A stretch of DNA of 41,078 nt from a virus, in IMG/VR virus record IMGVR_UViG_3300032046_000073, positions 1 to 41,078 of that record. One strand, given 5' to 3'. The notes beneath the pieces were generated by a model. It was given only the letters and a program-made list of their open reading frames with translations, had not been told where the DNA came from and searched no databases. The stretch's first letter is position 1. The number at the start of each line of letters is the position of its first letter. This document shows, one piece after another, positions 10,188 to 31,697 of this stretch. A program made the translations under genes and the position numbers.

Positions 10188-10747
10188 ATTAACTTATCCT
10201 TTTTGTAATCTTTCCATCTTTTTTTAGAATTTTCGCTTCCAGTGATAAATTGTATATTTTTAAGAGTATAATTCTTATCATTGTTTATCCTATCAAGGGT
10301 CGGTCTGTACTTATACTTGAATCCACCTTTGACCCAATTTTTATAAATCCTTATTAAACTATCTGATTTTTCTGCTATTTTTTTAAACTCCTCGAAAGTA
10401 AAAAACAATTTTCTTTTTTTATATGTATCATCTTTTTTAATCCTATATCCAATCCATAAATACATATTTCTGATTATAACCTCTAACTTTTTTTTATAAA
10501 CAATGTCATATTCTCTTTTTTTCTCATAATCATAGGAACTTTTTATTCGTTCTAATGCAGATTCACGATTTTTTTTGTACCACTTTTTAGATTTTTCTTT
10601 TATTATCTCTTTGTTTACAGAGTATCTTTTTTTTGCTTCAAAAGAATGACAGCTTTTACAAATTCCAATATATCCATCTTTGTATTCTGTATTAGCATAA
10701 AAATCGGTTAATGGTAATTTTTTGTTACACTTTTTACATATTTTCAT
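10184..10747 (-). CDS. HNH-type homing endonuclease interrupting the peptidase gene
   Basis: 187 residues. An N-terminal zinc knuckle (MKICKKCNKKLPLTDFY, ICKSCHSFEAKKRY), a long basic helical stretch, then the nuclease core YRPTLDRINNDKNYTLKNIQ followed by FITGSENSKKRW. This D-R-I-N/D-N form of HNH is common in phage free-standing homing enzymes. Its ATG is exactly 6 nt after a TATACT box, so it should be made from a leaderless mRNA with no ribosome site. Insertion between codons for ..NFL and KNDGW.. splits the peptidase gene. Very AT-rich. Confidence 0.85.
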   Translation of the reverse strand: MKICKKCNKKLPLTDFYANTEYKDGYIGICKSCHSFEAKKRYSVNKEIIKEKSKKWYKKNRESALERIKSSYDYEKKREYDIVYKKKLEVIIRNMYLWIGYRIKKDDTYKKRKLFFTFEEFKKIAEKSDSLIRIYKNWVKGGFKYKYRPTLDRINNDKNYTLKNIQFITGSENSKKRWKDYKKDKLI

Positions 10748-10753
10748 ATCTAA

Positions 10754-10782
10754 AGTATAACACTTTTTTATTTGGTTGTCAA
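10754..10782 (-). promoter_or_regulatory. Leaderless promoter of the HNH gene
   Basis: TTGACA (10782-10777), 17-bp spacer, TATACT (10759-10754), then 6 nt to the ATG at 10747. The TGA of TTGACA is the stop codon of the upstream peptidase half. Same geometry at 34711-34739 and 31669-31697. Confidence 0.9.
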
Positions 10783-11048
10783 GTATTCAAAAAGTTTATC
10801 GCTTCTTCTATGTCGGTAGTTTTACCATTATACTCCAATCCCAAAGTTCCAGCCGCACAAGCAGAATCTAAATATCCTTGACTATCGAAGCAATTATGGT
10901 CGTCTAAAATTCTTGCCACTTCTGGCGGTTCTTTATCTATAAGACAAGCAAGTGAAGTCAGAAAACAACCATAGGAACCAATGCTTAAATTGGCTGGGCT
11001 AAATGTTTTATATTTCCATCTTGGGTCTTTTTGCGAATAAGAGGTCAT
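10779..11048 (-). CDS. N-terminal half of split C39-like peptidase
   Basis: 89 residues: SYSQKDPRWKYKTFSP, then IGSYGCFLTSLACLI with the likely catalytic Cys28 and the oxyanion Gln6. This is the first half of the papain-like C39 fold found in many phage lytic or virion peptidases, normally about 150 residues. It ends INFLNT-stop, where the missing half would continue KNDGWIIAET (10187). It lies just after two small membrane proteins, so a role in lysis or cell-wall cleavage is plausible. ATG 11048 overlaps the preceding stop. Confidence 0.75.
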   Translation of the reverse strand: MTSYSQKDPRWKYKTFSPANLSIGSYGCFLTSLACLIDKEPPEVARILDDHNCFDSQGYLDSACAAGTLGLEYNGKTTDIEEAINFLNT

Positions 11049-11131
11049 TATTTAATCCACCTATATATTATACCACAAAGGCAGGCGACAAAGATAATGA
11101 AAATTAAAGCCCAACCTTGTTCAGGGGTCAT
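11048..11131 (-). CDS. Tiny membrane protein (27 aa)
   Basis: MTPEQGWALIFIIFVACLCG then IIYRWIK: one hydrophobic helix with a basic end. It overlaps both neighbours by 3-4 bp. Its coding sequence contains TGTGGTATAATA, the same word as the extended -10 promoters at 34011 and 30791, so it may also hold a promoter for the peptidase/HNH region. Possible second holin or antiholin component. Confidence 0.6.
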   Translation of the reverse strand: MTPEQGWALIFIIFVACLCGIIYRWIK

Positions 11132-11298
11132 TTTCCCTTCTTTGGAATGGGTATATATTGTCCAAAATAAAATCCCACCACTAAACCGATTAGGGCTTTT
11201 ACTTCTCCATCGTGCCCAAAGACAATCATCAATCCGCCACCGACAATTATAATAATGGCAATAATCCCTGAAACTAATTCTCTAAATGTTGGTCTCAT
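11128..11298 (-). CDS. Small two-helix membrane protein, holin-like (56 aa)
   Basis: MRPTFRELVSGIIAIIIIVG, then GGLMIVF, a short charged turn (GHDGEVK), and a second helix ALIGLVVGFYFGQYI. The layout suits a class II holin or a hydrophobic virion protein. It is next to a peptidase gene half, which favours a lysis role, but a better holin candidate sits beside the CHAP endolysin at 6409. Confidence 0.65.
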   Translation of the reverse strand: MRPTFRELVSGIIAIIIIVGGGLMIVFGHDGEVKALIGLVVGFYFGQYIPIPKKGK

Positions 11299-11299
11299 C

Positions 11300-11515
11300 T
11301 TATTTAACTCCTATCTTATTATTTATAGCCGTGATTGCCGTTTTGATAGTATCAATATCTACCTTTAAATCTTCTAACTTGATCTCGGGTTTAATCCCGT
11401 AAAAAGTATTGATTTCTTCTTGGGTATGCTTAGGACAAACCATTCCGCTTTTCTCGGTTTTAACATTAGTGACACCTACAATTTTTCCACAAATTTCACA
11501 AAGCAAGTTTGGCAT
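11300..11515 (-). CDS. Small zinc-finger protein (71 aa)
   Basis: C-x-x-C at the N-terminus (LLCEICGKIVGV) and C-x-x-H (MVCPKHTQEE) form a likely zinc site; the C-terminal half (LKVDIDTIKTAITAINNKIG) looks like a short coiled coil. It stands between the Gly-rich fibre and the membrane genes. Role unknown. Confidence 0.65.
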   Translation of the reverse strand: MPNLLCEICGKIVGVTNVKTEKSGMVCPKHTQEEINTFYGIKPEIKLEDLKVDIDTIKTAITAINNKIGVK

Positions 11516-11527
11516 AAAATACTCCTT

Positions 11528-12583
11528 TTATTCAAATGTACCGTTTGTTAAATTAAACTTTAAGACTGTTCCTCCCCCCGTTCCTGCCCCATTGCCTACC
11601 GTGCCATTATCACCCACTCCTCCAGCACCCCATCCATCTCCGCCTGTTCCAACCGACCCAGCAGGAGCAGATATTGTCCCTGTATTTGTAAGAGTTTTAT
11701 AAACCAACCAGAGTATTCCGCCACCACCCGGAGCTCCGCCTCCACCACCACCAGTAGATATTTCGTAAGATTCTCCATCTCCTACTCCACCATTGCCTCC
11801 ATTACCGCCTGGGACAGTAATCGTCCCTGCATTGACAATATTTTTGGCAAAGATGACAACCGTTCCAGCACCAGAACCACCGCCCCCGCCCCCACCACCC
11901 TTAGCTGTACCTCCGTGTCCACCACCACTCGAACCACCCCGTCCCCCAGTTCCACCAGAGATAACAGTTGAAACTCCATATTTTAACATACCGTATAAAG
12001 TCCTTAATTTCCTAACTGTTTCAGCCCTATAAGCACCCGCTGTTCCGCCAGCATAACCACCTTCATTAGCGGCGGCACCAGCACCACCACCCCCCCCATC
12101 TCCGCCATCGCCCGTTGCAGCGGTTGGTTGAGTCGCCGCCGCTCCCGCACCTGTTGCTCCAGCCGCTCCAGCCGTTCCCGCTCCGCCAGCGGCAAGGTCA
12201 GTCGTTGTTAAGACCGCACCTGCGGCTCCAGCCCCAGAGGTAGTGCTATTCCCGCCATTATTAGGCGTCCATTGTATCTTCCCGCCACTTGCAACGGTTA
12301 AAGTATCTTTAACAAAAATCCTATATCCTGCCGTGTTTAAGGTAACCCCATTGGGGACAGTCAGATTATTATAAAACATTGTCCTTGTTAAAGAACCGCT
12401 TGAAGCGGTAACATCATTATCCGAACCGTCGCCGAAGAATAAAGTCTCGGAAAGAAACTGCGAAAAAGCGGCCGAATCTGTTCCGTCTAATAAATCAGAA
12501 TCAGCGGCTTTGGCTAATATACCAAGATATAAAGCATCGGCGGCGGATTGGGAGATTCCTTTTTGTGATTCGTGTCGTGGCAT
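11528..12583 (-). CDS. Glycine-rich tail-fibre-like protein (351 aa)
   Basis: The head MPRHESQKGISQSAADALYL with LLDGTDSAAFSQF resembles fibre attachment segments. The middle and C-terminal parts are Gly/Ala-rich repeats with runs of GGGGGG, interspersed with short beta strands (GAGTVVIFAKNIVNAGTITV, GGILWLVYKTLTNTGTI). Such polyglycine-helix domains are found in receptor-binding tips of phages. A related protein is at 24168. No catalytic motifs. Likely host recognition at the tail. Confidence 0.7.
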   Translation of the reverse strand: MPRHESQKGISQSAADALYLGILAKAADSDLLDGTDSAAFSQFLSETLFFGDGSDNDVTASSGSLTRTMFYNNLTVPNGVTLNTAGYRIFVKDTLTVASGGKIQWTPNNGGNSTTSGAGAAGAVLTTTDLAAGGAGTAGAAGATGAGAAATQPTAATGDGGDGGGGGAGAAANEGGYAGGTAGAYRAETVRKLRTLYGMLKYGVSTVISGGTGGRGGSSGGGHGGTAKGGGGGGGGSGAGTVVIFAKNIVNAGTITVPGGNGGNGGVGDGESYEISTGGGGGGAPGGGGILWLVYKTLTNTGTISAPAGSVGTGGDGWGAGGVGDNGTVGNGAGTGGGTVLKFNLTNGTFE

Positions 12584-12621
12584 AATTAAAAGTTTCCTTT
12601 TAAATATTTCATAATTATCTT

Positions 12622-12909
12622 TTAGATGACCAAAAACGATAATCTTTGATTATTCGCAGAAGCTATAACATAAATCTCATCGGCATCTCGTCCTTCGACC
12701 ATCAAAGATTCTCCAGCGTTTAACTCAAATCCATCAGTGGCGTCAGTCGTCCCCGCCGTAACCCCAGCCCCCCCCACATAAATTATTCCTGTATTAGTAT
12801 TAGATGCCTTAATAAGTATCCCTACACTTGGCGCAATACTGGTTGTGATCAACTGTTCGGCAGTTGTATCAACATCGCCGTTAGCACCAGTGCTAAATCT
12901 TAGACCCAT
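12622..12909 (-). CDS. Small virion protein candidate (95 aa)
   Basis: AGGAGG before ATG 12909; the start abuts the stop of the gene at 12910. Beta-rich sequence: TTSIAPSVGILIKASNTNTG, GFELNAGESLMVEGRDADEI, YVIASANNQRLSFLVI. It resembles small capsid- or tail-decoration domains that align to an axis or fibre. No family is certain. Confidence 0.5.
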   Translation of the reverse strand: MGLRFSTGANGDVDTTAEQLITTSIAPSVGILIKASNTNTGIIYVGGAGVTAGTTDATDGFELNAGESLMVEGRDADEIYVIASANNQRLSFLVI

Positions 12910-13245
12910 TTAATCCTCCATATATTCTTTGGCTACATTCGCGACCGCTCTTATAAAAGCACCCTTCTTATTTACCTTTTTATCCATTTCTTCGTTACCG
13001 TGGCTTTTACCATCCATTTCAATCGCTTGTCCGCCTAAAACGTGAAAAGAAGCCCGGACTTCTTCTTTTTGATTGGGGTTATACATATTTCCTTTATTGA
13101 TTGAAACCATCTCAACCGAAAGTTTGACGATGTAAGACTTCCCCACATCCCAATCCTTAATTGCCGGGATTAGGTGTTCGGAAATCTCTAATGTTGAGGG
13201 ATTCTCTTTTTCGACTTTTGGCACGACACTTTGTTCTAATTCCAT
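12910..13245 (-). CDS. Hypothetical protein (111 aa)
   Basis: GGAAAA upstream of ATG 13245. The middle has beta strands (SYIVKLSVEMVSINKG, VRASFHVLGGQAIEM) and the end a helix (GAFIRAVANVAKEYMED). It lies beside the plus-strand RNA unit; an isolated TATAAT at 13268-13263 could promote it. No family recognised. Confidence 0.55.
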   Translation of the reverse strand: MELEQSVVPKVEKENPSTLEISEHLIPAIKDWDVGKSYIVKLSVEMVSINKGNMYNPNQKEEVRASFHVLGGQAIEMDGKSHGNEEMDKKVNKKGAFIRAVANVAKEYMED

Positions 13246-13274
13246 TTTTTCCTTTCTAAATGATTATACATCAC

Positions 13275-13303
13275 TTGACAAAAATTTATGTTTGTGATAT
13301 AAT
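13275..13303 (+). promoter_or_regulatory. Consensus plus-strand promoter of the structured RNA
   Basis: TTGACA (13275-13280), 17 bp, TATAAT (13298-13303), with TGA directly before the -10 (extended). It is the strongest promoter on the plus strand and points against all neighbouring genes. No ribosome site follows for more than 400 nt. Confidence 0.9.
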
Positions 13304-13309
13304 AAATTA

Positions 13310-13720
13310 TGAAAATTTAGTTAGCTGTGAGAAGTTCGTACGAGCTTCAGGAAATTGGCTCGCATGGTCGGCTCACAGCTAACATGCGAGCCTTTTTAAT
13401 ACGCTAACAAGAGAAGAACTCGGTTTAGCAAGTCGTAGGAGAATGTGAGAGTAGGGGTTGACTACTAAGCTGGCTCTCACAGACTGGGAAACGACTTTAA
13501 AGAAGCACCTGAAGCTCGGAATTCTCTTTTAGCATTTACAAGTTAATGTTACGAAATCTAAGTTGGAAATCATCCAGAATGAAACTTATAAAGTAGAAAA
13601 CTTGTCAAAAGAATTTTTAAGTAGCCCAGTAAAAACGGCAGTCTCACCTTCTCCGTCAAACCTGATGGGGAAGGGGGGTATTGGCAGCAAGTAGTAAATT
13701 GGTTAATTAAAATAAGTTAA
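13310..13720 (+). ncRNA. Large, highly structured non-coding RNA
   Basis: No ORF of note, but many long perfect complementarities. S1 13321-13331 with 13372-13382 (11 bp); S2 13341-13351 with 13508-13518 (11 bp); S3 13357-13366 with 13383-13392 (10 bp, then TTTTT); S4 GCTAA-c-AAGAGAA 13403-13415 with 13522-13533 (12 bp, one bulge); S5 13430-13436 with 13491-13497; S6 13445-13451 with 13474-13480; S7 13538-13544 with 13599-13605; S8 13647-13658 with 13663-13674 (12 bp, AACC loop); ACTGGG 13483-13488 with CCCAGT 13625-13630. S1 and S3 interleave as a pseudoknot, and S2 crosses S1 and S3. Size and ornate pairing recall phage-associated large RNAs such as ROOL or GOLLD, but I cannot assign a family. 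3' end uncertain. Confidence 0.85.
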
Positions 13721-13729
13721 GGTGCGAAT

Positions 13730-13903
13730 ATGAACAAATGGCGGCAGGCAATTAAAGAAAATATCTTATTGATTATCATATCTCTAATTGTGATTATAAT
13801 TTTATTTGTTATTTTTAATGAATCTGATCTCTTTCCCTTTGCTTTACTCATATTTCTTTGTGGACTTTTTCTTGGACTCAATCCTTGGAAAAGAATACTT
13901 TAA
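13730..13903 (+). CDS. Small membrane protein, only plus-strand gene (57 aa)
   Basis: ATG 13730 follows AAGGTG. MNKWRQAIKENILLIIISLI starts a first helix (LLIIISLIVIIILFVIF); a polar NESDLF turn leads to a second (FALLIFLCGLFLGL), ending NPWKRIL. It abuts the stop of the convergent 1260-residue gene. It is probably co-transcribed with the structured RNA. Function unknown. Confidence 0.65.
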   Translation: MNKWRQAIKENILLIIISLIVIIILFVIFNESDLFPFALLIFLCGLFLGLNPWKRIL

Positions 13904-16900
13904 TTATTTTTTATAATATTTCTTAAATAATCTTTCTCTTACTTTTTTTCTATTATTATCTACAATTTTCTTAACCTCATCTTCTAATTCAGATGGAGAC
14001 AATTCTCTTAAATAACCTATTCTTCCTTCTAATTCTTTCTTAATAGCTTGGCCAGATTGCTCTAAATATTGATCATATTCCTCTGGTGATAATTTTGTCT
14101 TAGCAATATTTGTTGAAGGAAAACCAATATCCACTCCTGCTTTTCTTAATATATCTTCTAATGGACTGACTTGTTCTGTAGTTGGAAAAAATGGAATACC
14201 AGTTGCTCTTTGTCCTGTTATCGGTTCTCCAAAAGCATTTCGTTTTGGTATCAACCCTTCAGTAACTCCATATCTTTGTTTGAGCATCTCGGGCAAAGTT
14301 TTTGTTTTGTAAATTTCTGGTTTAAATAATCTCATTGTTTGACTGACAATCCCAGGTGAAGCGAATGATGATACTGTTCTATTGAACCAATTTAATCCTT
14401 CTTGTTCTGGACTATCTAATGCATTAAATAGATTACTGATTCCTTGTAAATAACTTTGGTCTAATAAACTATTACCTACTTTAAAGGCAATCTCTGCAAT
14501 ATCTTTACTTTCTATTGCTTTCTCTTTTTTCTTGTATAATTCGTAGGCATTTCCGACCATTGATAAAGGAATATTAACAGGATTAATATTTTGGTAAGAA
14601 TACCATTTATTGCCTATTTTGATTGAGTTCGGTTGCCAGCCAGTTCGATATAGGGCATCTCTTTCTGCTGCATCCAATGATCTACCACTACCAGAGATTC
14701 TATCTTGCATAGCATAAGTTGCCAACCCCGCTAATGTTAATGAACCGAGTGTAGCTCTGGCAATAGCCATATTTCTTTCTCTGATTGTTTCTCTTCCTAA
14801 TTTGAGAAATCCTAATGGGCCTGCTTCCAATCCTTGCTTCATAATATTAGAAGGGGTTTGAATAAAAGGAATGACAAATTTAGTTGGTTTAAAAGAATTG
14901 GTTAAATCAGACAAAGCAGCCGTTGCTTTATCTGGTGCGGTTTGGAATACTCCCCTTGCGCCATATTTATTAGCTGCTTCCATCATTTCTATTGTTGGAT
15001 TTTTAATAAGTTCAGCTATTCTATTATTTAATGCAGTACCTTTTAATCCTTCTTTTTGAGCTATCTCTGTAGCCTTCCCCCACAATTCACGACTTTTAAA
15101 GACTGACCTAAAAATTTCATCTGAGGCAGTTAATAATCTTGTTGGCAGATTGACAATAGTTCCTAATTTCCCTTTTATTGCTTGTGGCCTTCTTATTTCC
15201 AACATTGCCGCTGATTCCGCTTTATATCCGTGCTGTAAGGCATATAGACCTTTTTTAATACCTTCCTGTAATCCCCTAAATCCACCGACAAAAGTGTTAA
15301 TAGATTCTTTCACAGCACCCTTTTTACCAATGACAGAAATAGGTTGAGCCGCAGTTTCAAATGCTAAATTGGTAGTATTGCCGATTATATTGCGTAAATG
15401 TGTAATTGGTCCAGACAAAATAGAATTATACCATAATTCTTCTATATAATCAGTAAATTTTGGTTTATGCAGATTTCTGATAAAATCATAAATTCCTTCT
15501 GTATCAGTCGGGTCAAAAGAAGCAAGTTTTTTTGCCATATCTTCTGTAAATTCTCTACCACCAAGTGATTTTAATACTTTATTCATCATTGCTTCATCTT
15601 TTGTCTGTAGAGCTTTAGAAGTAGATTTTAGAATATTTAAAGTTCTGCCAGCTTCCGCTCTTGCGCCCATTTGAATCTGCTGTAATCCAGCCTGTTCTAT
15701 TGTCGCTTGTTGCAGTTTAAGCAAATTTTCAGTGTTATTTTGTCCTTTCAAATAAATTAGATCTTTTAATTGAGCTACTTCTTCCGCCTTACCGCCGGCC
15801 ACCATATCTAATCGTTTTAATTCTTCGGCATTAAACGCCTTACCTTTAGGAGTCTTCATAAATGTTTCTATGGTTTTAGATGATCTTTCTGCGCTTTGGG
15901 TAGTTTCTGCCCAAGTTTTTACTCCTCTGGTTTGTTTAGCTAAATCATCCCAATTTTCAAGCCAAGTATTTTGATATTGGCTCTTGGCCTCTGGGGTTAA
16001 ATCAAGTTTATTCATTCGTATATTGCCAATAAATCCTTCTTTACTAATAGGTGCAGGCAATCCACCCAATTTAGATAAACCTGTTTTCTGTCCAGTTATA
16101 CTTTGCACCACTTCTGGTAACTCTACTTTCGGTTTTACTTCAGGTATAACAGATGGTTTTACTTTAGCCCCCTCTCCTACTTTAGCCCCCCCACTGACGG
16201 GAGGGGAATAGGAATTATTAAAAGTCCTTTTTTCATCTTGGAGTTTGTAAATTTGTTTCTGTAAGTTTGTTTCTGTATTTTTCTCAACATTTGTTAAAAA
16301 TCTATAATTACCAGTTTTATTATCATAGAATGATGAATTTAAACTTTCACTTGGAGTAAACTTTAACTTACTTTTTAATTGTGTTATTTGTCTGTTAAAA
16401 TCATCTATTTTATTTGCAAAATTTTTATCATAGGTTACTTTATCTACTCCCCCCACCTCTCCTGGCTTTAGGGATTGATTGAATTTATTAAATGATTTTT
16501 GAGCTTCTGGATAAATTTTAAAGAAATCTTGACGATTTAATTCTTTTGCTTCACCAATTGGCCCGGAGTCTAAGTGTAATACTTTTTTGCCTTTTGTTTG
16601 AATAAGATTTTCAACTTCATCTTTGAAAAAAGATTGTTCTTTTGGTGATAACGAAGTATAGATTCTACCAGTGGGAGTATCTACCGCCAGTCTTGCCACC
16701 TCTGGTTTCGGAGCCACCACCTCTGGCATTTCCGCTTTTGGTTTGACTTCTGGTATGACTGGTTCAGGAAGTTTTTTAGTGGGTTTAGTAATTTCTTTTA
16801 TCACCTGTTCTTCAATTTGATTAACAGTTCCTGCTCCTATTTTAGTTTTGGAAGCCCATTTCATAAACCCTGGTATTGGGGAAAACAAAGTCCACAGACC

Positions 16901-19844: not shown

Positions 19845-19852
19845 GATAACTC

Positions 19853-20610: not shown

Positions 20611-20862
20611 CTAAAATCCATCTTTATAATATCCGAGAATAAGTCTATCTAAATTAGTTGACTCTTCTCTAACAATAATAGTTTTAGCATATACCGTTCC
20701 TTCCATCATCGCTGATCCGATTGCCGATCCTTCTGTCATTAAATTAAAGTCTTCACTTGTTTGATAATTAGGGTCTAAACTTTGTAAACTTCTGGTAAGG
20801 TAAGGATCATACCCTAAATTTTCGTAAGTTGGGTCTTCTTTTGCCTTAATTTCACTTGACAT
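20611..20862 (-). CDS. Hypothetical protein (83 aa)
   Basis: MSSEIKAKEDPTYENLGYDP and SEDFNLMTEGSAIGSAMMEG, ending LDRLILGYYKDGF. Its start overlaps the end of the broken HNH frame (20852). It lies within the fibre and tail genes; likely structural, not recognised. Confidence 0.55.
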   Translation of the reverse strand: MSSEIKAKEDPTYENLGYDPYLTRSLQSLDPNYQTSEDFNLMTEGSAIGSAMMEGTVYAKTIIVREESTNLDRLILGYYKDGF

Positions 20863-21397
20863 CGCCGAGCCTCTTTTCTTGAAAATATTTTATCCAATAA
20901 CTTCTATTATTATTTGTTCCCGCATGACAACTTCCACAAAGTGTAATTAAGTTATCAGGACAACAATTTTTCTTATTATAATCAATATGATGAACTATCC
21001 ACCCATTCTTACTACAAATTTGACAGACAAATTTATCTCGTTGTCTAATACTCGTTTTTAAAGTTTCTGTCTAGTCGGTAGTATATAGTAAAAAAGATAT
21101 TCCACCCTTCCATGAAGGACTATTCTCGCCACAATATTTTCCAATTCTTGCTAAACTTAATTTCTTTCTATGTTCTTCTGAAAGTTTCTTTCCTTTGTTC
21201 CAAGAGATTCTGCCCTTTAATGATATGCTCAACTTTTTCTTTGTTTCTTCTGATAAATGTTTGCCTAACGTATGACGAGAATGATTTTCACTTATTTTTT
21301 TTCTAACTATTTCCTCAACAGGTCGTCCTTTATTCCAAGGAGTATATCCTCTTTGAAAACCTTGAGTTTTTTTTCGTGGGTAAACACCTATTGGCAT
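20852..21397 (-). pseudogene. NUMOD3-HNH homing endonuclease broken by an amber codon
   Basis: The first 108 codons (MPIGVYPRKKTQGFQRGYTP, NUMOD3 motifs GKHLSEETKKKLS and GKKLSEEHRKKLS) end at a TAG (21071-21073). The same frame then continues 72 codons with an intact HNH domain: VCQICSKNGWIVHHIDYN, NLITLCGSCHAG, SYWIKYF. In the paralogue at 2227 the matching position is Trp (NWTQTLK against D-stop-TETLK), so one G-to-A change (TGG to TAG) explains the break. TAG ends other genes here, so recoding is unlikely. It is inserted between the beta-propeller gene and the gene at 20611. Confidence 0.85.
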
Positions 21398-24167: not shown

Positions 24168-24941
24168 CTATGTTAAATATCTTATTATTACTACACCTGC
24201 GACTCCATCCGTAGGGTCTTTACCGGAACCACCATTGGCGGAGGCGCCGCCTCCTCCACCGCCATATGTTGTTCCGGGGGCACCAGCCTGAGAAGTAGTC
24301 CATTTACCGCCACCTCCACCAACACAATAAGTAACCGAAGCACCCGAAATAGAGTTGGCCACTCCTATACCCCCTGTGCTGCCAGCTTCTGAGTCCACCC
24401 CAGCACCGCCAGCACCCCCGCCTCCACCACCATTTGCAGGAGAAGTGTCACCTCCAGCGCCACCGTCATATCCTTGACCAGTAGTCTTATTACCCTTTAC
24501 ACCATTAAGATGAGCTCCACCACCACCCGAACCACCAGTCCTACCACTATTTGTAGATGAATTATAAGCCCCACCACCTCCACCACCACCGACTGCGGTA
24601 GAAGTATGAAAAATTGATTGTCCACCATCACTGCCTTGATGAGGAGCACCTGCAGCACCTGCAGCCCCTAATGCACCGACAGTTGCCCCATAAGTTCCAG
24701 CGGTTAAGGCGTGAGATGCTTCATAAATGTATCCTCCAGCACCCCCTCCACCCGAACCACCATAACTCGCATGACCCATACCACCACCACCGCCTCCAGC
24801 AATAACAAGATAATCAACGGTCAAATTTTCGTTTAGCACAAAATTACCGTTACTTGTAAAAGTATGAATTGTATAACCACCCGAATATGTGATTGTTCCA
24901 CCGGTTGCCTTAATTGATGTTCCCCATAATGGATGTAACAT
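24168..24941 (-). CDS. Glycine-rich fibre-like protein (257 aa)
   Basis: After a short beta-rich head (GGTITYSGGYTIHTFTSNGN, LTVDYLVIAGGGGGG), which is the classical opening of bacterial and phage glycine-rich domains, the protein is mainly G, A and S with repeated runs of five to seven Gly and ends GVAGVVIIRYLT. It is related in style to the protein at 11528. Probably a tail fibre or virion surface adhesin. Confidence 0.75.
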   Translation of the reverse strand: MLHPLWGTSIKATGGTITYSGGYTIHTFTSNGNFVLNENLTVDYLVIAGGGGGGMGHASYGGSGGGGAGGYIYEASHALTAGTYGATVGALGAAGAAGAPHQGSDGGQSIFHTSTAVGGGGGGGAYNSSTNSGRTGGSGGGGAHLNGVKGNKTTGQGYDGGAGGDTSPANGGGGGGAGGAGVDSEAGSTGGIGVANSISGASVTYCVGGGGGKWTTSQAGAPGTTYGGGGGGASANGGSGKDPTDGVAGVVIIRYLT

Positions 24942-24950
24942 AAAATTCCT

Positions 24951-25598
24951 TTAAGCTGGGACTGCAAATGCCTTTAAACAATTTCCATACATATATGTCC
25001 CGTCGCAATAAAAAGATATAATATCTATTGCCGCCGCTGTTGTTGTAAGTGTTGGTGCGGTTCCTGACGGCCATTCATAAACATTTCCATATGCCAGCGT
25101 TCTTGAACCCGTGCCATCTTGAGTTACTTTTAAAATATAAGTTCCTACTTTCATATTTGTCGGATTAGATAGGGTTCTGTTTCCTCCGAGAGTAACGGTC
25201 GCCACTTCTCCTAAATTCATATTCCAAGCGATACTAGTCCCATCTGTTAGCGCTTGAGTCGTGGCTATTGGATTAGTTAATGTTTTGTTGGTAAGTGTTT
25301 GAGCGTCTGTTGTTCCTACGATGGCTCCGGTAATAGTTAAATCTAAATTAGCTTCTGGTATATTAGCACCATCGTCAGATGAGGCGTCGTGAGTATGAGT
25401 TCTATAAGCCCCAGAGGCGTGTTTTAGAAAATAGTCAAAGGAAGTATTAACTGCCGAACTATCAACTCCCACTTTCGTCTCTATCGCTTCAATCTGCTCG
25501 GAGTGATTGTTGTAAATTGTGCTGGTGATTTCAGTCGAACTGTCTTTTACGCCATTGTCGTCTATCGATGTGGGAAATAAACTTTGGCCTGCACCCAT
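24951..25598 (-). CDS. Tail-fibre-like protein (215 aa)
   Basis: It contains segments common in phage fibres: NNHSEQIEAIETKVGVDSSA, DYFLKHASGAYRTHTHDASS, DAQTLTNKTLTNPI, then a C-terminal beta domain GGNRTLSNPTNMKVGTYILK and IDIISFYCDGTYMYGNCLKA. The TLTNKTLT motif is frequent in fibre knobs. Likely receptor-binding or fibre protein. Confidence 0.75.
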   Translation of the reverse strand: MGAGQSLFPTSIDDNGVKDSSTEITSTIYNNHSEQIEAIETKVGVDSSAVNTSFDYFLKHASGAYRTHTHDASSDDGANIPEANLDLTITGAIVGTTDAQTLTNKTLTNPIATTQALTDGTSIAWNMNLGEVATVTLGGNRTLSNPTNMKVGTYILKVTQDGTGSRTLAYGNVYEWPSGTAPTLTTTAAAIDIISFYCDGTYMYGNCLKAFAVPA

Positions 25599-25871
25599 CT
25601 AAGTCCTTTCTCTTTTAAAAGATATTTTTGCCCTATCATCGCTTCGGTTAACTAAACTTTTATCAAATACATTACTTATTTTAGCTTTATCACTACTGAC
25701 TACTGAACCAGGTCTACCTTTGTCAAAGTAATGCCCATCGTCAAATAAATATCCTTGATCAAATAATAAAGGTAAATCCCTACCTTCAGATGCTGACTGG
25801 TTATTCCCATAAATAGAAGTTTTTTTATTACTTATGGATATTTGAGCTTTGTCTGATGTGAATGTTGGCAT
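25599..25871 (-). CDS. Small repeat-containing virion protein (90 aa)
   Basis: Three copies of S-D-(K/R)-A-(Q/K)-I-S are visible (FTSDKAQISISNKK, SSDKAKISNVF, SDDRAKISFKRE) around an aromatic Asp/Gly-rich core (LLFDQGYLFDDGHYFDKG). It overlaps the upstream gene by 1 bp. No family known to me; structural by context. Confidence 0.55.
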   Translation of the reverse strand: MPTFTSDKAQISISNKKTSIYGNNQSASEGRDLPLLFDQGYLFDDGHYFDKGRPGSVVSSDKAKISNVFDKSLVNRSDDRAKISFKRERT

Positions 25872-26344
25872 TAATACCCCCTGATATCAGCACCTTCTGT
25901 TATAGGTAATCCAATAACATTTGAACCGGGTGTGATTGCCTTCCATAAGCAAATGTAGTATATGTTTCCTTCTGTTATACTTGCATCTTCGAATGTCTCA
26001 ATAATATCTGCGCCATTGACTATTAGATAAGGTCCCAGAACTGATGCTAATGTATCCACTCCCAGAGTAGGCGTCGCATCACTCCAAATTTTATTCTCAG
26101 TAATATTGGTAGCGGTTGTTCGAGCTATTAGTTTCTCAGTATTACCCGCAACTCCTACTTCAAGAGTTGCCTCACCAACTAAATCAGCCGTGCATACCCC
26201 AAATATTCTCACCAATACGTCACCGTTTACTTGAAATAAAATCCAATCAATAGGAGTTCCTAAATCACCCCTTGTCTCACCAAAAGCATCCGGTATCGCT
26301 ACCGCTATCTCGTAACCATCTAAAGTTGGAATTTGTTTAAGCAT
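25871..26344 (-). CDS. Virion protein, downstream copy of a tandem pair (157 aa)
   Basis: Start at ATG 26344 (TTAGGAG); the earlier in-frame start at 26362 overlaps the previous gene. LKQIPTLDGYEIAVAIPDAF, FQVNGDVLVRIFGVCTADLV, GPYLIVNGADIIETFEDA. Clear paralogue of the next gene (LDGYE, FQVNGDV, IFGVCT, LGPY, VNG-x-DIIET shared). Beta-rich, likely a head-decoration or virion surface protein. Confidence 0.65.
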   Translation of the reverse strand: MLKQIPTLDGYEIAVAIPDAFGETRGDLGTPIDWILFQVNGDVLVRIFGVCTADLVGEATLEVGVAGNTEKLIARTTATNITENKIWSDATPTLGVDTLASVLGPYLIVNGADIIETFEDASITEGNIYYICLWKAITPGSNVIGLPITEGADIRGY

Positions 26345-26351
26345 ATTACTC

Positions 26352-26843
26352 CTAACTATCAAATCTTACAGAAGCACCACCAGTAATCGGCACTCCCTTA
26401 ACTGATGATCCTGGACTCAATGGTCTCCAAAGACAGACATAATAAATAACTCCGGCTGTTAAATCAGTTGTTTTGGTAGTCTCTATAATATCTAATCCAT
26501 TTACGATTACATAAGGCCCAAGAACAGTTGACCAAAGATCCACTCCAACTGATGGTGCAGAATCGCTCCATAAACAGCCCGCATCTATATTTGTAGCGGT
26601 GGTCAGTGCTATAAGAGCGGCGGTGTTGCCCGTGACTCCAACTTCTAAACTTCCGGAAGTCCCTACGACATTTGTAGTGCATACACCGAATATTCTTAAA
26701 ACCACATCACCATTGACCTGAAATATAGTCCAAGCGCCGCTGGCGGTGTCTTTGTCCCCGTGAGCACCAGAAGTCCCTGTAAAGGCGGCAGGTGCAGAAA
26801 CTGCTACCTCATATCCGTCTAAAGTGTTAAGTTGTTTTTGCAT
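26352..26843 (-). CDS. Virion protein, upstream copy of a tandem pair (163 aa)
   Basis: MQKQLNTLDGYEVAVSAPAA, FQVNGDVVLRIFGVCTTNVV, LGPYVIVNGLDIIETTKT, YYVCLWRPLSPGSSVKGVPI. Along the whole length it aligns with the gene at 25871 at moderate identity, so the pair arose by an old tandem duplication. The role is inferred from position after the capsid block. Confidence 0.65.
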   Translation of the reverse strand: MQKQLNTLDGYEVAVSAPAAFTGTSGAHGDKDTASGAWTIFQVNGDVVLRIFGVCTTNVVGTSGSLEVGVTGNTAALIALTTATNIDAGCLWSDSAPSVGVDLWSTVLGPYVIVNGLDIIETTKTTDLTAGVIYYVCLWRPLSPGSSVKGVPITGGASVRFDS

Positions 26844-26854
26844 AATAGTCCTTT

Positions 26855-27184
26855 CTAATAAAATTTCGTGCGCGTGGCAATTTTAGAAACTTCATCTGAT
26901 ATTCTATGGATCTTCTCATCTCCTTCTATGTCTATCTGATTATTGTGTTCGTCCATATCTTTGATCAAGTTTTTATTCTGCCACGAATCCATCTTATAAA
27001 GTTTTTCAATGTGTCCCCGGTTTGGATAGCAGAACTCCCCGGCGTGCTCTATTACGAGTATTTCGCGGGGGTAGTTCTGCCTATCCTTGCGGTATATTAC
27101 ATATCGTCCTAATGTTTTATCCAACTTTAAAGTCAAGGTTTTGTCTAAGCGCTTCATTTGGCTAATAAAGTTAGGTGAAATCAT
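26855..27184 (-). CDS. Hypothetical protein (109 aa)
   Basis: MISPNFISQMKRLDKTLTLK; the middle holds GRYVIYRKDRQNYPREILVI and GEFCYPNRGHIEKLYKMDSW. It overlaps the preceding stop by 1 bp. Mixed alpha/beta, no family recognised; located between capsid-associated genes. Confidence 0.55.
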   Translation of the reverse strand: MISPNFISQMKRLDKTLTLKLDKTLGRYVIYRKDRQNYPREILVIEHAGEFCYPNRGHIEKLYKMDSWQNKNLIKDMDEHNNQIDIEGDEKIHRISDEVSKIATRTKFY

Positions 27185-27441
27185 TATTTTGTTTCCTTGG
27201 GTTCTTCTTCTACTTTCACAACTTCTTCCTTAACTATCTTTTCTTTCTTAACTTTCGGTGCAACTTCTTCTACAACAGCTTCCACAATCTCTGATACAAA
27301 TTCTAATCCCGTGCCTTCTCTGACAATTTCGGCAGCAGGACCTTCATTAAAGGATTTAACTTCGCCCGGTTGGAAGTAAATTTGCATTCCATCAAACTGA
27401 ACTTGAACTTCTATACCTGATGTGTTTTTTACTTCTTTCAT
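27184..27441 (-). CDS. Small acidic/lysine-rich tail protein (85 aa)
   Basis: The N-terminal 50 residues (KNTSGIEVQVQFDGMQIYFQ, PGEVKSFNEGPAAEIV) look like a small beta domain, common in phage head genes. The rest is a low-complexity K/E/V tail (EEVAPKVKKEKIVKEEVVKV). Unknown function. Confidence 0.6.
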   Translation of the reverse strand: MKEVKNTSGIEVQVQFDGMQIYFQPGEVKSFNEGPAAEIVREGTGLEFVSEIVEAVVEEVAPKVKKEKIVKEEVVKVEEEPKETK

Positions 27442-27451
27442 AGTTTCCTTT

Positions 27452-27661
27452 CTATTCGTTAATTTCTAATTTGTCCATGATCTTTTTAAGTCTGCGGAGG
27501 ATTTTGTCGATATCTGCCTGCAGGTCGGTAATATCAATTTTATCTTTTGCTATATACCCTGAACCTGCGCACGGTATACACTCCCCACTATTTATACTGG
27601 TATTGTCAAAACCAGTTCCCATACATCTTGGACACATAAATTTAACGTCCAGGTTAGTCAT
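27452..27661 (-). CDS. DnaJ-type zinc-knuckle small protein (69 aa)
   Basis: Two C-x-x-C-x-G-x-G motifs, MCPRCMGTGFDN and CIPCAGSGYIAKD, as in the cysteine-rich DnaJ domain, followed by a short coiled coil (LQADIDKILRRLKKIMDKLE). Likely a zinc-binding accessory in the head gene block. It has no J domain. Confidence 0.7.
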   Translation of the reverse strand: MTNLDVKFMCPRCMGTGFDNTSINSGECIPCAGSGYIAKDKIDITDLQADIDKILRRLKKIMDKLEINE

Positions 27662-27676
27662 AATTATCTCTTAATT

Positions 27677-28585
27677 CTATGTGGTTATCGCAGAAGCACC
27701 ACCGGAAGCACCATCTCTGTTGTCAACAAATGAAACTGATGCAGTCCCACCATTAATTCCAAGTGTAGTAGCAACAGCACATCTGTTATTTACCGCTGCG
27801 CCTGACGTCAAAATATCAATAGCATGGGTGATTGTGCATAAACTACCACAAGTGGAAATATAGTTATCGGCAACCATACATTGTGCTCCTTGTGCAAGAA
27901 TACCATAGGTGACTGTCCCAGATACAATAGTTATGTGATTTCCAATGATATCTATGCCAGTTCCCGTTGAAGAACCTATAACGGCTGTAAAATCACCACC
28001 TGTTCCAGTAGAAAATCGGTTGTAACTTATATTGCCATAGGAAGCGGCACTACCAACAGCAACGATATAACACGCAGAACCTTGTGTCATCCAAAATGTG
28101 TTGTGATGAATGTTTGTTCTCCAGATGTTTGCAGGAACATCTATTGCTGCATAACCAGCTTTGTTGATTATCTGTAATCCTGCAACTTCTCCATATGCTT
28201 CCATTGTAATACCCACACAACTACCACCTTGCGTTAAAGCAACAGCGCCGTTAGTACCAACTGTTCTATTCAAACCATTTGCGCCAATAAGATGCATTGA
28301 TGATTTACCTGCAAAAGTGATTGCCGCAGCTAAAGTGTAAGCACCTGGGAATACATAGATGTAAGAGTTAGTGCCACCTTTTGAAGCTGTTATAGCTTGG
28401 TTAATTTGGACTTCATCAGCCGTTCCATCGCAGGTATATAACATACTTGGACTAACTCTGCCTCTTAACATAGCGTGTGAATTCGTATTCTCTCTACATA
28501 CATACCTAACCTCACCGACATCAGACCCGATAATTTTAGTTACATCTATTCCTGCGTCTGAGGCGATGTTTCTGTTCTTAATCAT
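27677..28585 (-). CDS. Right-handed beta-helix virion protein (302 aa)
   Basis: Pectate-lyase-like repeats: an early YTCDGTADEVQINQAITASK followed by SYIYVFPGAYTLAAAITF, then rungs of about 22-25 residues (TNIHHNTFWMT, GNISYNRFSTGTG, IDIIGNHITIVSG, CMVADNYISTCG). Such folds make tailspikes or surface decorations, sometimes with glycan-cleaving activity, but I see no catalytic triad. It follows the major capsid gene, and the hairpin CTTTAC-GAAA-GTAAAG lies before it in 28586-28698. Confidence 0.8.
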   Translation of the reverse strand: MIKNRNIASDAGIDVTKIIGSDVGEVRYVCRENTNSHAMLRGRVSPSMLYTCDGTADEVQINQAITASKGGTNSYIYVFPGAYTLAAAITFAGKSSMHLIGANGLNRTVGTNGAVALTQGGSCVGITMEAYGEVAGLQIINKAGYAAIDVPANIWRTNIHHNTFWMTQGSACYIVAVGSAASYGNISYNRFSTGTGGDFTAVIGSSTGTGIDIIGNHITIVSGTVTYGILAQGAQCMVADNYISTCGSLCTITHAIDILTSGAAVNNRCAVATTLGINGGTASVSFVDNRDGASGGASAITT

Positions 28586-28698
28586 TTTAAACCTTTCATA
28601 GTTTACCCTTTACTTTCGTAAAGATACTTTAATTTATTAAGACGGTTTATTTATGGAAGAACTCCGCCAAACTTCCCCAAAAATCCTTTATGGAGGAA

Positions 28699-29985
28699 TT
28701 ATTGGACATAACTTAGGCAGGCGTTCTTCACACAGTTATTCGCCCCAAGATTGGCGTAGTAGTAAAGAAATGCCTCATAAGCGTCGTAGTTTGCAACTCT
28801 CGAAAGCACCGAACCATCTTCATCAGCCCAAGTAATAGGTGAAGATTCATAAAGTTCCAAAGTGCTTTTGTCAACGAAATACATCGTATAAGGTGTGCAG
28901 TCTTTATCTGGAGTAAGCGGCGTGCCGTTAAAGTCTACTGATTTGAATCCACCTTTTAATTCTGTGGTATTTACAAACCTTTTGTCTGACTGAAGGATCG
29001 TGACATAGGAATCTCGAAGTCCATAAGTGGTCAAAACAAACGAAACTTCGCCATCATTCTTTTCAGTCAATGTCTGTGCTTCCTGCATATATGCTTCAGT
29101 TAAGGTCGCAGGAGCGGCGGCTGAACCATAGTCAACGACAGATGCTTTCCAGTAGTTATTGCCCGCGGTTGAACGAGTGATAGTTTGTAAGGTATCAAGA
29201 TGACCAGAGTCATCAATAATCCCACGAAGCCCCATTATTTCGGAAGCAGCGGCGTCGTGTCTCATCAAGTAACCGTTATCATCGCCACCTGCGCAAGTAG
29301 AAACCGTCATACCTGTCGCAGAGTTGACCGTTGTAACTGTTGCGGCTGTTACATCAATCGTTGTGTAGGTAGTAGCGTCACCCATATCAAATTCCATACC
29401 TGCTACAAAGTATTTAGTAGGAGCAACCTCTGAACCAATGCTTGAAGGGGTTGTAAAGGCGATTCCAAGTAAAGAATCAAGAGCAGCAGTGTATACATCG
29501 CTCCACCCGCTATCAGGATCACCGTTTGATAACGCTAATTGACCAGTGCCATTCCCACAAGCAAGCTGTCGGTTGACATCGTTTCTCAGAGCCTTAGTAA
29601 CTGCTTCTGTTTCGACTTCTAAGGATTTCATAACTGAACCACGATTGTCTCTTGAAGCTCTCATTACATTTCCTGTAATTTCGATTCTTCCATAATTCTG
29701 CTTCATATACACATCAGTTGTTTCCAAACGAGTATAGCTTTTGTTTGGGAGTGGTTTACCTTCGGGTTTTGCGCCAACTGAAGGGTGAAGCGCTTTTTGC
29801 AGGGTAATTCTTGCGAATTGTCCAGAAGTATCAATCTTTTTTGCATCGCCTCTTTCGAGGTTCTGTAAAAGGACTGACTTCTGCGGGAATTGCGTCCTAA
29901 TTGCTGGCTGATAGTGAATCCTTAATGCGTCATCAAAGTAAGTGCCAGTAGAACCTACTTGCTGACCTGTTAAATCTGTTGCCAT
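28699..29985 (-). CDS. Major capsid protein (HK97 fold)
   Basis: 428 residues. Typical capsid features: FPQKSVLLQNLERGDAKKID near the N-terminus, RLETTDVYMKQNYGRIEITG, RASRDNRGSVMKSLEVETEA, the E-loop and spine region, and a C-terminal KSTLELYESSPITW with YDAYEAFLYYYANLGANNCV. It forms the icosahedral shell. Order scaffold then capsid downstream of portal is the standard morphogenesis cassette. GAAAGG ribosome site. Confidence 0.9.
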   Translation of the reverse strand: MATDLTGQQVGSTGTYFDDALRIHYQPAIRTQFPQKSVLLQNLERGDAKKIDTSGQFARITLQKALHPSVGAKPEGKPLPNKSYTRLETTDVYMKQNYGRIEITGNVMRASRDNRGSVMKSLEVETEAVTKALRNDVNRQLACGNGTGQLALSNGDPDSGWSDVYTAALDSLLGIAFTTPSSIGSEVAPTKYFVAGMEFDMGDATTYTTIDVTAATVTTVNSATGMTVSTCAGGDDNGYLMRHDAAASEIMGLRGIIDDSGHLDTLQTITRSTAGNNYWKASVVDYGSAAAPATLTEAYMQEAQTLTEKNDGEVSFVLTTYGLRDSYVTILQSDKRFVNTTELKGGFKSVDFNGTPLTPDKDCTPYTMYFVDKSTLELYESSPITWADEDGSVLSRVANYDAYEAFLYYYANLGANNCVKNACLSYVQ

Positions 29986-29997
29986 ATTTTCCTTTCA

Positions 29998-30666
29998 TTA
30001 TTCTTCGGCGGCGAGTGCGGCTTCGGTGGCTTCCCTAAAAGTTTTAGGCGTCTTGACATCAGGCTGTTTTGCTCCAGTTCCGCCTCTTTTTTCAAAGAAG
30101 GTGGTTGGCCGTTTCTTCTCAAGCGTCTGTTTCAACTTCCACTCATCCAATTCTTGCTCGTGCATTTCCTTATAGGCCGTTCTGGGATTAAACAATTGAT
30201 TTTTCATCCCGTATTCCAAGACATCTTTTTTAACAAACTTTGGTCTACCATCCGAACCGTCAAACTCTGCCTCTAAATTTTCAATTACTTTGTTAAACTC
30301 TAAATCTTCTCTTAATTGATCTTCTTTTTCTTTTTGTTTTGAACTAAGTTTTTCCTGCACATACGGATCAGCGAAGAAATCGTCAATCTGTTTGCGCCTT
30401 TTCTCTTCATCAGGTTCTAAGTTTTCAGGTTCTTTTTTCGGCTTCTTGAACTCTGCGAGTTCCTGACTTCGCTTTGTAAATTCAGCCGGCATTTCTTTCC
30501 AATCAATGTCTGGATACTTCTCCCTTAGTTCCCTGAAGCTCTTACCACTCTCGATCAAATCTTTGGCCTCATCGGCTGTCATTTCGACATCGCCGATAGT
30601 TACTTTTTGATCGTCCCCTGCATCCGCAGGGTCTTTGACATCGTCGTTAGACGCATCGTCTGACAT
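29998..30666 (-). CDS. Capsid scaffold protein
   Basis: 222 residues, strongly acidic N-terminus (MSDDASNDDVKDPADAGDDQ), then charged helices (KSFRELREKYPDIDWKEMP, QKEKEDQLREDLEFNKVIEN) and a basic C-terminus, as in phage scaffolds that template procapsid assembly and bind capsid through a basic tail. It lies directly before the capsid gene and after a leader-hairpin promoter. Confidence 0.8.
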   Translation of the reverse strand: MSDDASNDDVKDPADAGDDQKVTIGDVEMTADEAKDLIESGKSFRELREKYPDIDWKEMPAEFTKRSQELAEFKKPKKEPENLEPDEEKRRKQIDDFFADPYVQEKLSSKQKEKEDQLREDLEFNKVIENLEAEFDGSDGRPKFVKKDVLEYGMKNQLFNPRTAYKEMHEQELDEWKLKQTLEKKRPTTFFEKRGGTGAKQPDVKTPKTFREATEAALAAEE

Positions 30667-30734
30667 GTTGTCCTTTCTGACTTTCTTTTAGAGTTCGTCT
30701 TCCGACTACTCTAAAAGGTTCGTCTTATTTATTT

Positions 30735-30796
30735 ACAAAAAACCCACGATTTTTTTCGCGGGTTCTTCCCTACGATATTAAGTTACCACTATTATA
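30735..30796 (-). promoter_or_regulatory. Extended -10 promoter and leader hairpin before scaffold (module B)
   Basis: TTTGTGGTATAATA (TATAAT at 30796-30791), then mini-hairpin GGG-AAGAA-CCC (30770-30760) overlapping a terminator-like stem AACCCGCGA/TCGTGGGTT followed by TTTTTTG. It is in the 137-nt gap before scaffold. Read-through, and not termination, must feed the capsid genes. Confidence 0.75.
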
Positions 30797-30803
30797 CCAC
30801 AAA

Positions 30804-30995
30804 TTAAGATTTTTTGGCAGCTCGCACAAATGCACCTTTTGTGGATTTGGCAGAACTTTTGGCAGTTTTTACTTCACCTGCTATTGATGATCCGCCACCT
30901 TTTGGAAAACAAATATGGATAAATTTTCCACCACTAAGTTTTTTAGTTCTTACTCGGCCACCGCCACTAACACAAGATTCAAATTGTTGACTCAT
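30804..30995 (-). CDS. Small basic protein (63 aa)
   Basis: MSQQFESCVSGGGRVRTKKL, then GGKFIHICFPKGG, and a lysine/serine tail. Small proteins of this look (x-F-x-S-C-V-x-x-G-G-R-V-R-T) are familiar from other phage head clusters but without known function. Its AAAGGAG site lies in the 3' end of the HNH gene. It overlaps the HNH stop by 17 bp. Confidence 0.65.
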   Translation of the reverse strand: MSQQFESCVSGGGRVRTKKLSGGKFIHICFPKGGGSSIAGEVKTAKSSAKSTKGAFVRAAKKS

Positions 30996-31662
30996 ATGGC
31001 TCCTTTAAACTTTTTAAATGGATTGCTGATAATATAAATTTTGTTAAATATTTTTTGTGGTATTTTGTATGACAATATACACAAAGTGTCTTACCATTAT
31101 CTATATTATATGCTAATTCTGGATATTCCCATTTTTCTTTTATGTGATGTGCTATTAATAATCTTTTTCTTTTGCAACCACAAGCAATGCACTTATGATT
31201 ATCTCGTTGTAGTATCTTTATACTCCACTCTTTTAGTCTAACTTTATCCGTTTTTGATTCATCTGGTTTTCTCGTTGACAAATATCGGCATTTATTACTG
31301 CAATATCTTCTATTTTGTATATATCCATTTTTACCAATTATCCCATTTATTCTACTTGCCTGTATATAAAATGTATCACCGCAATACTTACAATCTATAT
31401 ATTTTCCATTTCTTTTGATACCTCTTAACTTATCTCCCCTATTCTTTGCAGCCTTCAATAATTTATCTGTTATCTTATGTGGTTTTCTTAATTTCTGTCT
31501 CCACAATGCATCATATTTAACATATTGCGATGGATTTGAATATTTGGTGGAACATTTTCTTGAACAAAATGTCTTTCTTGTAATATCACGTCTTATTTTT
31601 AATTGAATTTCTTTTCCACATTGAAGGCATTTCTTTTTTCCCAAATTTAGTTTATTTCTCAT
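30979..31662 (-). CDS. HNH endonuclease with zinc fingers, leaderless
   Basis: 227 residues. Three or more Cys clusters (KKCLQCGKEIQLKIRRD, DCKYCGDTFYI, RRYCSNKCRYL) precede an HNH core: KCIACGCKRKRLLIAHHIKE, then ELAYNIDNGKTLCVYCHTKY. A free-standing homing-type enzyme between portal and the capsid block. Its ATG is 6 nt after a TACAAT box, so no leader or ribosome site is used. The TGA of its -35 box is the stop codon of portal. Confidence 0.85.
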   Translation of the reverse strand: MRNKLNLGKKKCLQCGKEIQLKIRRDITRKTFCSRKCSTKYSNPSQYVKYDALWRQKLRKPHKITDKLLKAAKNRGDKLRGIKRNGKYIDCKYCGDTFYIQASRINGIIGKNGYIQNRRYCSNKCRYLSTRKPDESKTDKVRLKEWSIKILQRDNHKCIACGCKRKRLLIAHHIKEKWEYPELAYNIDNGKTLCVYCHTKYHKKYLTKFILSAIHLKSLKEPYESTI

Positions 31663-31668
31663 ACCATT

Positions 31669-31697
31669 ATTGTATGCCTACAGTGTTTGAAAGTCAA
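31669..31697 (-). promoter_or_regulatory. Leaderless promoter of the HNH gene after portal
   Basis: TTGACT (31697-31692), 17-bp spacer, TACAAT (31674-31669), 6 nt, ATG (31662). Same spacing as 10754 and 34711. It overlaps the last codons of portal. Confidence 0.85.

Follow-up and report, generated by a model that had tools for sequence, protein, structure and literature searches.

Intein endonucleases are normally encoded in frame and form part of the protein that is spliced out. An out-of-frame, intein-encoded HNH gene in the terminase gene was noted briefly in brucellaphages (PMC4422536, 2015), and in mycobacteriophage methylases the ShiLan domain and the Pacc40 insertion were described as hiding an out-of-frame HNH gene (PMC11855218, 2025), whose authors raise the question of its translation and suggest leaderless initiation. 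Promoters of their own are known from the homing endonucleases of phage T4, where they are located either at the 3' end of the preceding gene or between genes (reviewed in PMC2988022), and leaderless genes whose start codon directly follows a -10 box have been described in bacteria (PMC3160421, PMC12340547). Here we analyze the IMG/VR virus record IMGVR_UViG_3300032046_000073 over its full length of 41,078 nucleotides (referred to as the window), in which three HNH nuclease genes, HNH1, HNH2 and HNH3, are each preceded by -35 and -10 boxes at the same short distance from the start codon. We consider it likely that the three are homing endonucleases of different origin that share this start arrangement, HNH3 being nested in an intein, and that they do not represent one portable cassette.

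Start arrangement of the three HNH genes

The pattern TTGAC(A/T)-17-TA(T/C)A(A/C)T-6-ATG occurs three times in the 41,078-base record, each time 5' of an HNH open reading frame (ORF), while a reversed-pattern control gave no match; the shared box design, the 17-nt spacer and the 6 nt to the ATG proposed in the initial annotation are thus exact at all three sites. All three lie on the minus strand. The boxes are TTGACA (10782-10777) and TATACT (10759-10754) for HNH1 (promoter 10754..10782, unit 10782..10745), TTGACT (31697-31692) and TACAAT (31674-31669) for HNH2 (promoter 31669..31697, unit 31697..31660), and TTGACA (34739-34734) and TATACT (34716-34711) for HNH3 (promoter 34711..34739, unit 34739..34702), the last of which falls outside the interval 10745-31697 originally assigned to the set. 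With a looser promoter pattern the window yields five matches against none in the control, the two additional ones preceding very short ORFs of 37 and 3 amino acids (aa). It had also been noticed that the stop codon of the upstream gene lies within TTGAC in two cases, and this is confirmed for HNH1 (ORF 11048..10779) and HNH2 (ORF 33703..31694).

A normal Shine-Dalgarno (SD) sequence is absent from HNH1 and HNH2, for which the longest match is 3 nt, while among the 38 other minus-strand window genes that encode 80 aa or more, 34 match over at least 4 nt at one of their first three starts. For HNH3, GGTGA is found about 12 nt 5' of the ATG, too distant for a good SD sequence. The proposed lack of a ribosome site consequently stands for HNH1 and HNH2 and needs qualification for HNH3. 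Taking as a leaderless sigma70 gene one that has -35 and -10 boxes, the latter about 6 nt from the start, and no SD sequence, HNH1 and HNH2 are clear examples, and HNH3 conforms apart from the distant GGTGA. Promoters were scored as sigma70-like out of 12. The arrangement suggests that transcription would begin at or next to the three ATGs and that translation would proceed without a leader.

The analysis supports the boxes as real and above chance. We regard it as unlikely, though deserving of consideration, that they reflect chance or coding coincidence and that the HNH genes are translated from a late polycistronic mRNA. The window has a GC content of 38%, and promoter-like sites number 60 against 53.6 expected and 76 against 64.0 expected in two 20-kb scans; moreover, HNH3 has its boxes in intein codons and GGTGA 12 nt before its ATG. 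The empty reversed-pattern control argues against coincidence, as does the lack of an SD sequence at HNH1 and HNH2 when most window genes have one.

An HNH gene in a second frame of the terminase intein

HNH3 had been taken for a free-standing insertion, whereas it actually lies in another frame inside the ORF of the terminase large subunit (TerL; 676 aa, 34023..36053, minus strand), within an intein that interrupts this ORF. Most terminase relatives align only to residue ~365, where the intein begins; most are without the intein, and empty sites therefore exist. The intein (267 aa, 34164..34964, minus strand; Pfam Intein_splicing, E 3.2e-15) has the expected splicing residues, with Cys1 at C364, the block-B His at H427 and the C-terminal Asn at N630, followed by Ser. 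In the predicted structure, the predicted local distance difference test (pLDDT) reaches ~98 for residues 1-89 and ~97 for residues 230-267 and is low in the linker overprinted by HNH3, and the best match in the PDB is the gp41-1 intein (E 3.8e-8), in agreement with a Hint fold. With its splicing residues intact in both sequence and model, the intein is predicted to splice itself out. HNH3 itself (156 aa, 34234..34704, minus strand) consists of an HNH_3 domain (PF13392, E 1.1e-15) and two zinc fingers, its start being offset from that of TerL by 2 modulo 3, and its frame gives a model with a pLDDT of 92.3. It is thus a hidden out-of-frame HNH, encoded in another frame of a stop-free insertion.

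HNH3 would accordingly be the mobility gene of the TerL intein, carried in a second reading frame. The TerL frame would be read straight through and the intein would then excise itself; over the HNH the intein frame would only have to stay stop-free, so that the linker would be a passenger. The nuclease would be made separately from its own start, either via an SD sequence or via a leaderless promoter within the codons of the N-terminal splicing block. By analogy with the HNH family and its precedents, it may then cut intein-less terL, whereupon the whole unit would be copied in by homing.

The HNH3 promoter boxes are written in codons of the conserved intein stretch ..CLTDIRYGDILEV.., and since they are made of intein codons, this promoter is no imported cassette. 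When synonymous codons were resampled at this site, 1.1% of cases reached the observed score of 11/12 and another 8.5% reached 10/12; the match is thus favoured by coding constraint without being fully accounted for by it.

The same nested arrangement is found in a relative whose intein occupies another point of TerL (L031), as well as in Acinetobacter phage Highwayman, Tetrasphaera phage TJE1 and Rhodobacteraceae phage LS06-2018-MD07, for which the annotations show only TerL at the position of the nested HNH. In order to survey its recurrence, we scanned with an alignment of nested HNHs and used the best 80 of 429 confirmed IMG/VR loci; with others added, this gave 94 HNH3-family hits, of which 86 were non-redundant after removal of eight near-duplicates. 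A partial locus antisense to annotated genes (L388) and the weak hits L052-L062 were excluded. In 63 of the 86, the +1 relative frame, which is the TerL register, is free of stops over the entire HNH; the +2 frame is so in none, and the remaining 23 have 1-13 stops in the +1 frame. The nested register is always the -1 frame relative to TerL.

Cys1, the block-B His and the terminal Asn could be aligned in all 63 nested loci (L460 via a second intein), and the +1 residue is C, S or T in every case; in 62 of 63, the aligned intein encloses the HNH core, with Cys1 before it and the final Asn after it. Nested HNHs start 60-103 codons after Cys1 and, in 61 of 62, stop 11-30 codons before the Asn. 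Pfam Intein_splicing matches 57 of the 63 nested ORFs, and several terminase families are matched among many of them. Of 27 HNH hits on genome contigs, 14 are nested; the labels of their records include archaea, Bacteroidota, Patescibacteria, Nitrospiraceae and proteobacteria. When the nested HNHs were shuffled with their own codons, the intein frame acquired 2.5 stops on average, whereas none is observed (P<0.05 in 38 of 62); free-standing relatives carry 7.0 stops against 6.7 expected. As nested copies have none of the expected stops and free-standing ones are at expectation, openness is selected in the nested copies.

Two neighbouring cases show other layouts. In the Vibrio phages 1.245.O and 1.238.A (L381, L382; 191-3919), TerL ends after the N-terminal half of the intein; an HNH in the same register comes next, the intein frame is broken, and a separate hint-domain ORF follows, possibly a split-intein derivative of the terminase with the HNH over the break. 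In L342 (record G023), a LAGLIDADG domain (9200-9403, minus strand) is part of a 753-aa ORF with a TerL-like beginning; here an in-frame intein probably occupies a different site of TerL.

Start signals were assessed for 62 nested HNHs (L462 had no assigned start) against a control of 1629 out-of-frame ATGs from the same ORFs, with nested starts picked by rule as those nearest to ~36 codons before the core. An SD core precedes 36 of 62 nested starts and 155 of 1629 control ATGs (p 6e-20), where the control counts ATG codons only and a few nested starts are GTG. TTG-16..18-TANNNT-6-start was found at six of 62 nested HNHs (the window, L399, L409, L441, L465 and TJE1) and at four of 1629 controls (p 3.6e-7), a difference that also speaks against chance boxes; under the stricter requirement of a promoter score of 10/12 or more, 3/62 nested HNHs and 1/1629 controls qualify. 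None of the six bearing the promoter geometry has an SD core. Among nested HNHs, the geometry is thus the solution of a minority, found repeatedly in unrelated members.

Taken together, we lean towards the view that phage terminase inteins make up a large class of two-frame selfish elements, in which splicing protein and homing nuclease occupy the same DNA in a fixed register and the N-terminal splicing codons double as the expression signal of the nuclease. This signal would be an SD sequence or, in about one tenth including the window, a promoter of the TTG-17-TAnnnT-6-ATG type that would give a leaderless mRNA independent of terL.

The constant -1 register relative to TerL would also fit a nested HNH that is fused to the N-terminal half of the intein by -1 ribosomal frameshifting. 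We consider this very improbable: an HNH-frame stop lies within five codons upstream of the start in 31 of 62 nested loci, and one codon upstream in the window, and it is because of this near upstream stop in many loci that fusion is disfavoured; the enrichment of a separate SD sequence or promoter at nested starts points the same way. Less probable still, in our estimation, is that the nested HNH is what remains, frameshifted and dead, of an ordinary in-frame intein endonuclease. In-frame HNH inteins do exist, as described for the dCTP deaminase of cyanophage CL131 (PMC6293099), and one nested HNH (L429) is broken; against decay stand the confident HNH3 model, the enriched start signals and the same register in 63 non-redundant loci. 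Structure alignments, which covered 56 of 63 inteins and 33 of 63 nested HNHs, further show H49, H50, N58, N62, H71 and eight Cys, the catalytic and zinc residues, to be invariant in all 33 aligned nested HNHs.

Leaderless-type promoters in the phage lineage and at HNH1 and HNH2

To place the three window promoters in a wider context, we compared the lineage of this phage with other phages. The first set comprised the window and 55 pieces from related virus records, found by terminase similarity in 46 records; regions came from 43 of these, three records and two contig ends being omitted and five near-duplicate pieces dropped, which left 56 non-duplicate pieces with 1128 called genes, the nested HNH3 not being among them. 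A promoter was counted if it scored at least 10/12 and ended at a set distance before one of the first three start codons. Such promoters end 5-7 nt before the start in 19 genes, while seven other distance classes hold 1-8 each. Leaderless-type promoters thus genuinely belong to this lineage, and the peak at 5-7 nt over other distances argues against a chance origin of the boxes.

Within the clade, promoters at 5-7 nt precede six of 31 endonuclease genes and 13 of 1097 others (Fisher p 5.5e-6); without the window the figures are 4/26 and 13/1044 (p 5e-4). Independent replicates in relatives, which again are not expected from coincidence, include a LAGLIDADG gene with a 12/12 promoter, TTGACA-17-TATAAT-6-ATG, two HNH/NUMOD-like genes of one record and one zinc-finger NUMOD-like gene. 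Endonuclease genes are also enriched, more weakly, at 20-22 nt (2/31 vs 3/1097) and 27-29 nt (2/31 vs 4/1097), and the general point is therefore the possession of an own promoter, most often leaderless. The endonuclease list was obtained by iterative phmmer followed by manual removal of nine members (A241, A357, A452, A590, A808, B1420, B2070, read as aminotransferase-like, B2388 and A496); A496 is a 574-aa ORF with a PF01844 match (G021:12700-12822) and an SD sequence at its first ATG, and its omission slightly favours the enrichment.

The second set contained 186 non-duplicate loci of other phages, after 29 duplicates had been dropped and genes at scanned pattern sites excluded. No enrichment was found in these (1 of 62 endonuclease genes vs 29 of 2393 others, p 0.54). 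Across IMG/VR, the exact consensus TTGACA-17-TATAAT-6-ATG has at least 124 matches; among the matches listed, 79 precede open ORFs of at least 60 aa, of which three look like homing endonucleases by phmmer and 76 do not. Very strong leaderless-type promoters stand, among the matches listed, before many ordinary phage genes (L149-L268), by eye including flap endonuclease-like, primase-like, clamp-loader-like, other replication, nucleotide and unknown genes. Comparing endonuclease genes with others, in the manner suggested for HNH genes, thus gives enrichment in the clade and equal frequency elsewhere, and a rule for HNH genes in general is not borne out. With 1/62 vs 29/2393 in independent loci and only three of six genes in the window, we reject the geometry as a general characteristic of HNH genes. 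The six-base spacing between promoter and ATG is customary in this phage lineage and does not hold as a rule elsewhere.

The window in fact has six endonuclease-like ORFs, and although the three HNH genes share the geometry as originally reported, the other three lack it and each carry SD-like sequence. These are a NUMOD3/HNH gene with AAGGA as SD sequence (2227..2820, minus strand), a second NUMOD3/HNH gene with AGGAG, split by an in-frame TAG at 21071-21073 (20852..21397, minus strand), and an endonuclease VII family gene that adjoins terL and has CGGAGG before its GTG (36050..36445, minus strand; PF02945, E 2.1e-25).

HNH1 (187 aa, 10184..10747, minus strand) begins with MKICKKCN and is a zinc-finger, endonuclease VII-like HNH protein (PHROG 1035 endonuclease VII, E 2.4e-16) for which a Pfam match at E 0.01 was not found. 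The ORF upstream (89 aa, 10779..11048, minus strand), whose TGA stop lies within the -35 box, has no Pfam match; by reading, it resembles the N-terminal half of a C39-peptidase-like protein, in the likeness of its relatives L353 and L319. On the other side, an ORF overlapping the end of HNH1 (9378..10187, minus strand) resembles in its first ~60 aa the C-terminal half of the same C39-like protein, as judged by eye and by MAFFT alignment only. HNH1 and its promoter thus probably sit within a split C39-like gene; as the joined protein is without a match in named phages and the clade gave only remote N-half relatives, no empty site was found there and the split-gene reading stays suggestive. If it is right, the inserted DNA is essentially the promoter and the HNH1 ORF, and would be the best case for a portable unit. 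HNH2 (227 aa, 30979..31662, minus strand; PF01844 HNH, E 1.8e-6), with zinc fingers, directly follows the gene for a P22-like portal protein (31694..33703, minus strand; PF16510, E 2.3e-28), whose stop codon its promoter overlaps.

A portable module, in which HNH genes carry one and the same promoter design with them and so depend on no host leader, would account for three window sites of identical geometry. The enrichment of endonuclease genes in the clade, the presence of the geometry in five other nested HNHs and the possibility that HNH1 with its promoter fills the gap in a split gene would agree with it. We nevertheless consider it improbable, given that half of the window's endonuclease-like genes lack the geometry, that other phages show no enrichment, that 76 of the 79 ORFs behind the consensus matches listed are not endonuclease-like, that the HNH3 promoter consists of intein codons, and that in the present sequence the upstream stop codon forms part of the -35 boxes of HNH1 and HNH2. 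As a general rule the portable module is refuted, the geometry being no commoner before the endonuclease genes of other phages.

We favour instead homing endonucleases of different origin with a common start arrangement. In this lineage, many endonuclease genes would have their own sigma70-type promoter, mostly set for a leaderless mRNA without SD sequence, and HNH1 and HNH2 would be inserted genes with such a promoter. Its likely use would be expression of the nucleases by host RNA polymerase, independently of the surrounding late operon. Several points weigh against this account and its extension to terminase inteins. The clade enrichment rests on six genes and on a list made by iterative phmmer and manual removals. 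The HNH3 boxes lie in conserved intein codons, where about 10% of resamplings score at least 10/12, so that the match may partly reflect coding constraint, and no solved HNH structure matched the HNH3 model in a Foldseek search at E 0.001. As for the nested HNHs, their starts are assigned and not mapped, 20 of 62 have neither SD core nor promoter geometry, L031 and most others lack the geometry, and at L429 the HNH frame itself is broken.

Among other identities considered for HNH1-3, that of group I intron endonucleases was rejected, as the window has no Rfam match at gathering thresholds that would place such an intron around these genes. In a survey of HNH genes with an MKICKKC start, upstream regions were mixed, several had an SD sequence, and a common promoter was not found. 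Some of these genes in other phages (L096, position 3594, and L068/L121) have a -7-like box about 4-5 nt before the ATG, TAnnTTTG or similar, which we take to be the Bacteroidetes-like -7 motif; this is a possible leaderless parallel under another promoter type.

Elsewhere in the window (13275-13720), a 12/12 sigma70 promoter on the plus strand precedes about 400 bases that contain no long ORF and in which hairpins are recognized by eye; this stretch, for which no Rfam family was found at the gathering score, is possibly a non-coding RNA. On the minus strand, a TTGACA-17-TAGGAT promoter and a short stretch behind it that closes with a T-run (5903-5755) could possibly belong to a small RNA, and a phage-encoded chaperonin (38040-39629; Cpn60, PF00118, E 3.6e-55) is also present.

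Comparison with described systems

In the open-licence PMC literature, a survey of nested intein HNHs was not found, and one earlier mention concerns an out-of-frame HNH in a TerL intein (PMC4422536); within the literature searched, the scale and the start signals of the nested intein HNHs appear to be new. A nested nuclease can escape gene callers that retain a single ORF for each stretch. Because intein and nuclease are overprinted, the dose of the nuclease could be set apart from the level of the host gene. The promoter pattern of the clade suggests in addition that the free-standing endonucleases of some phages use host RNA polymerase and not the late programme.

The brucellaphage TerL intein has, compared by its description, the same layout as the locus presented here, to which the survey, the register, the start signals and the selection test are added (PMC4422536). 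ShiLan and Pacc40 are alike in that the HNH lies in another frame of an insertion kept stop-free in the host gene (PMC11855218). As described there, ShiLan has no intein splicing domain and the HNH uses a GTG start, whereas here a complete intein surrounds the HNH and an SD sequence or promoter is found at its start; because the splicing domain is present, we do not file the nested HNH3 under the ShiLan type. The T4 endonucleases have middle or late promoters, none of them early, and several lack a promoter of their own; the parts of the review covered here contain no leaderless case (PMC2988022). Finally, the leaderless starts described in bacteria are a genome-wide feature of the host (PMC3160421, PMC12340547), while the putative ones reported here are concentrated on the endonuclease genes of one clade and on some intein-nested HNHs.

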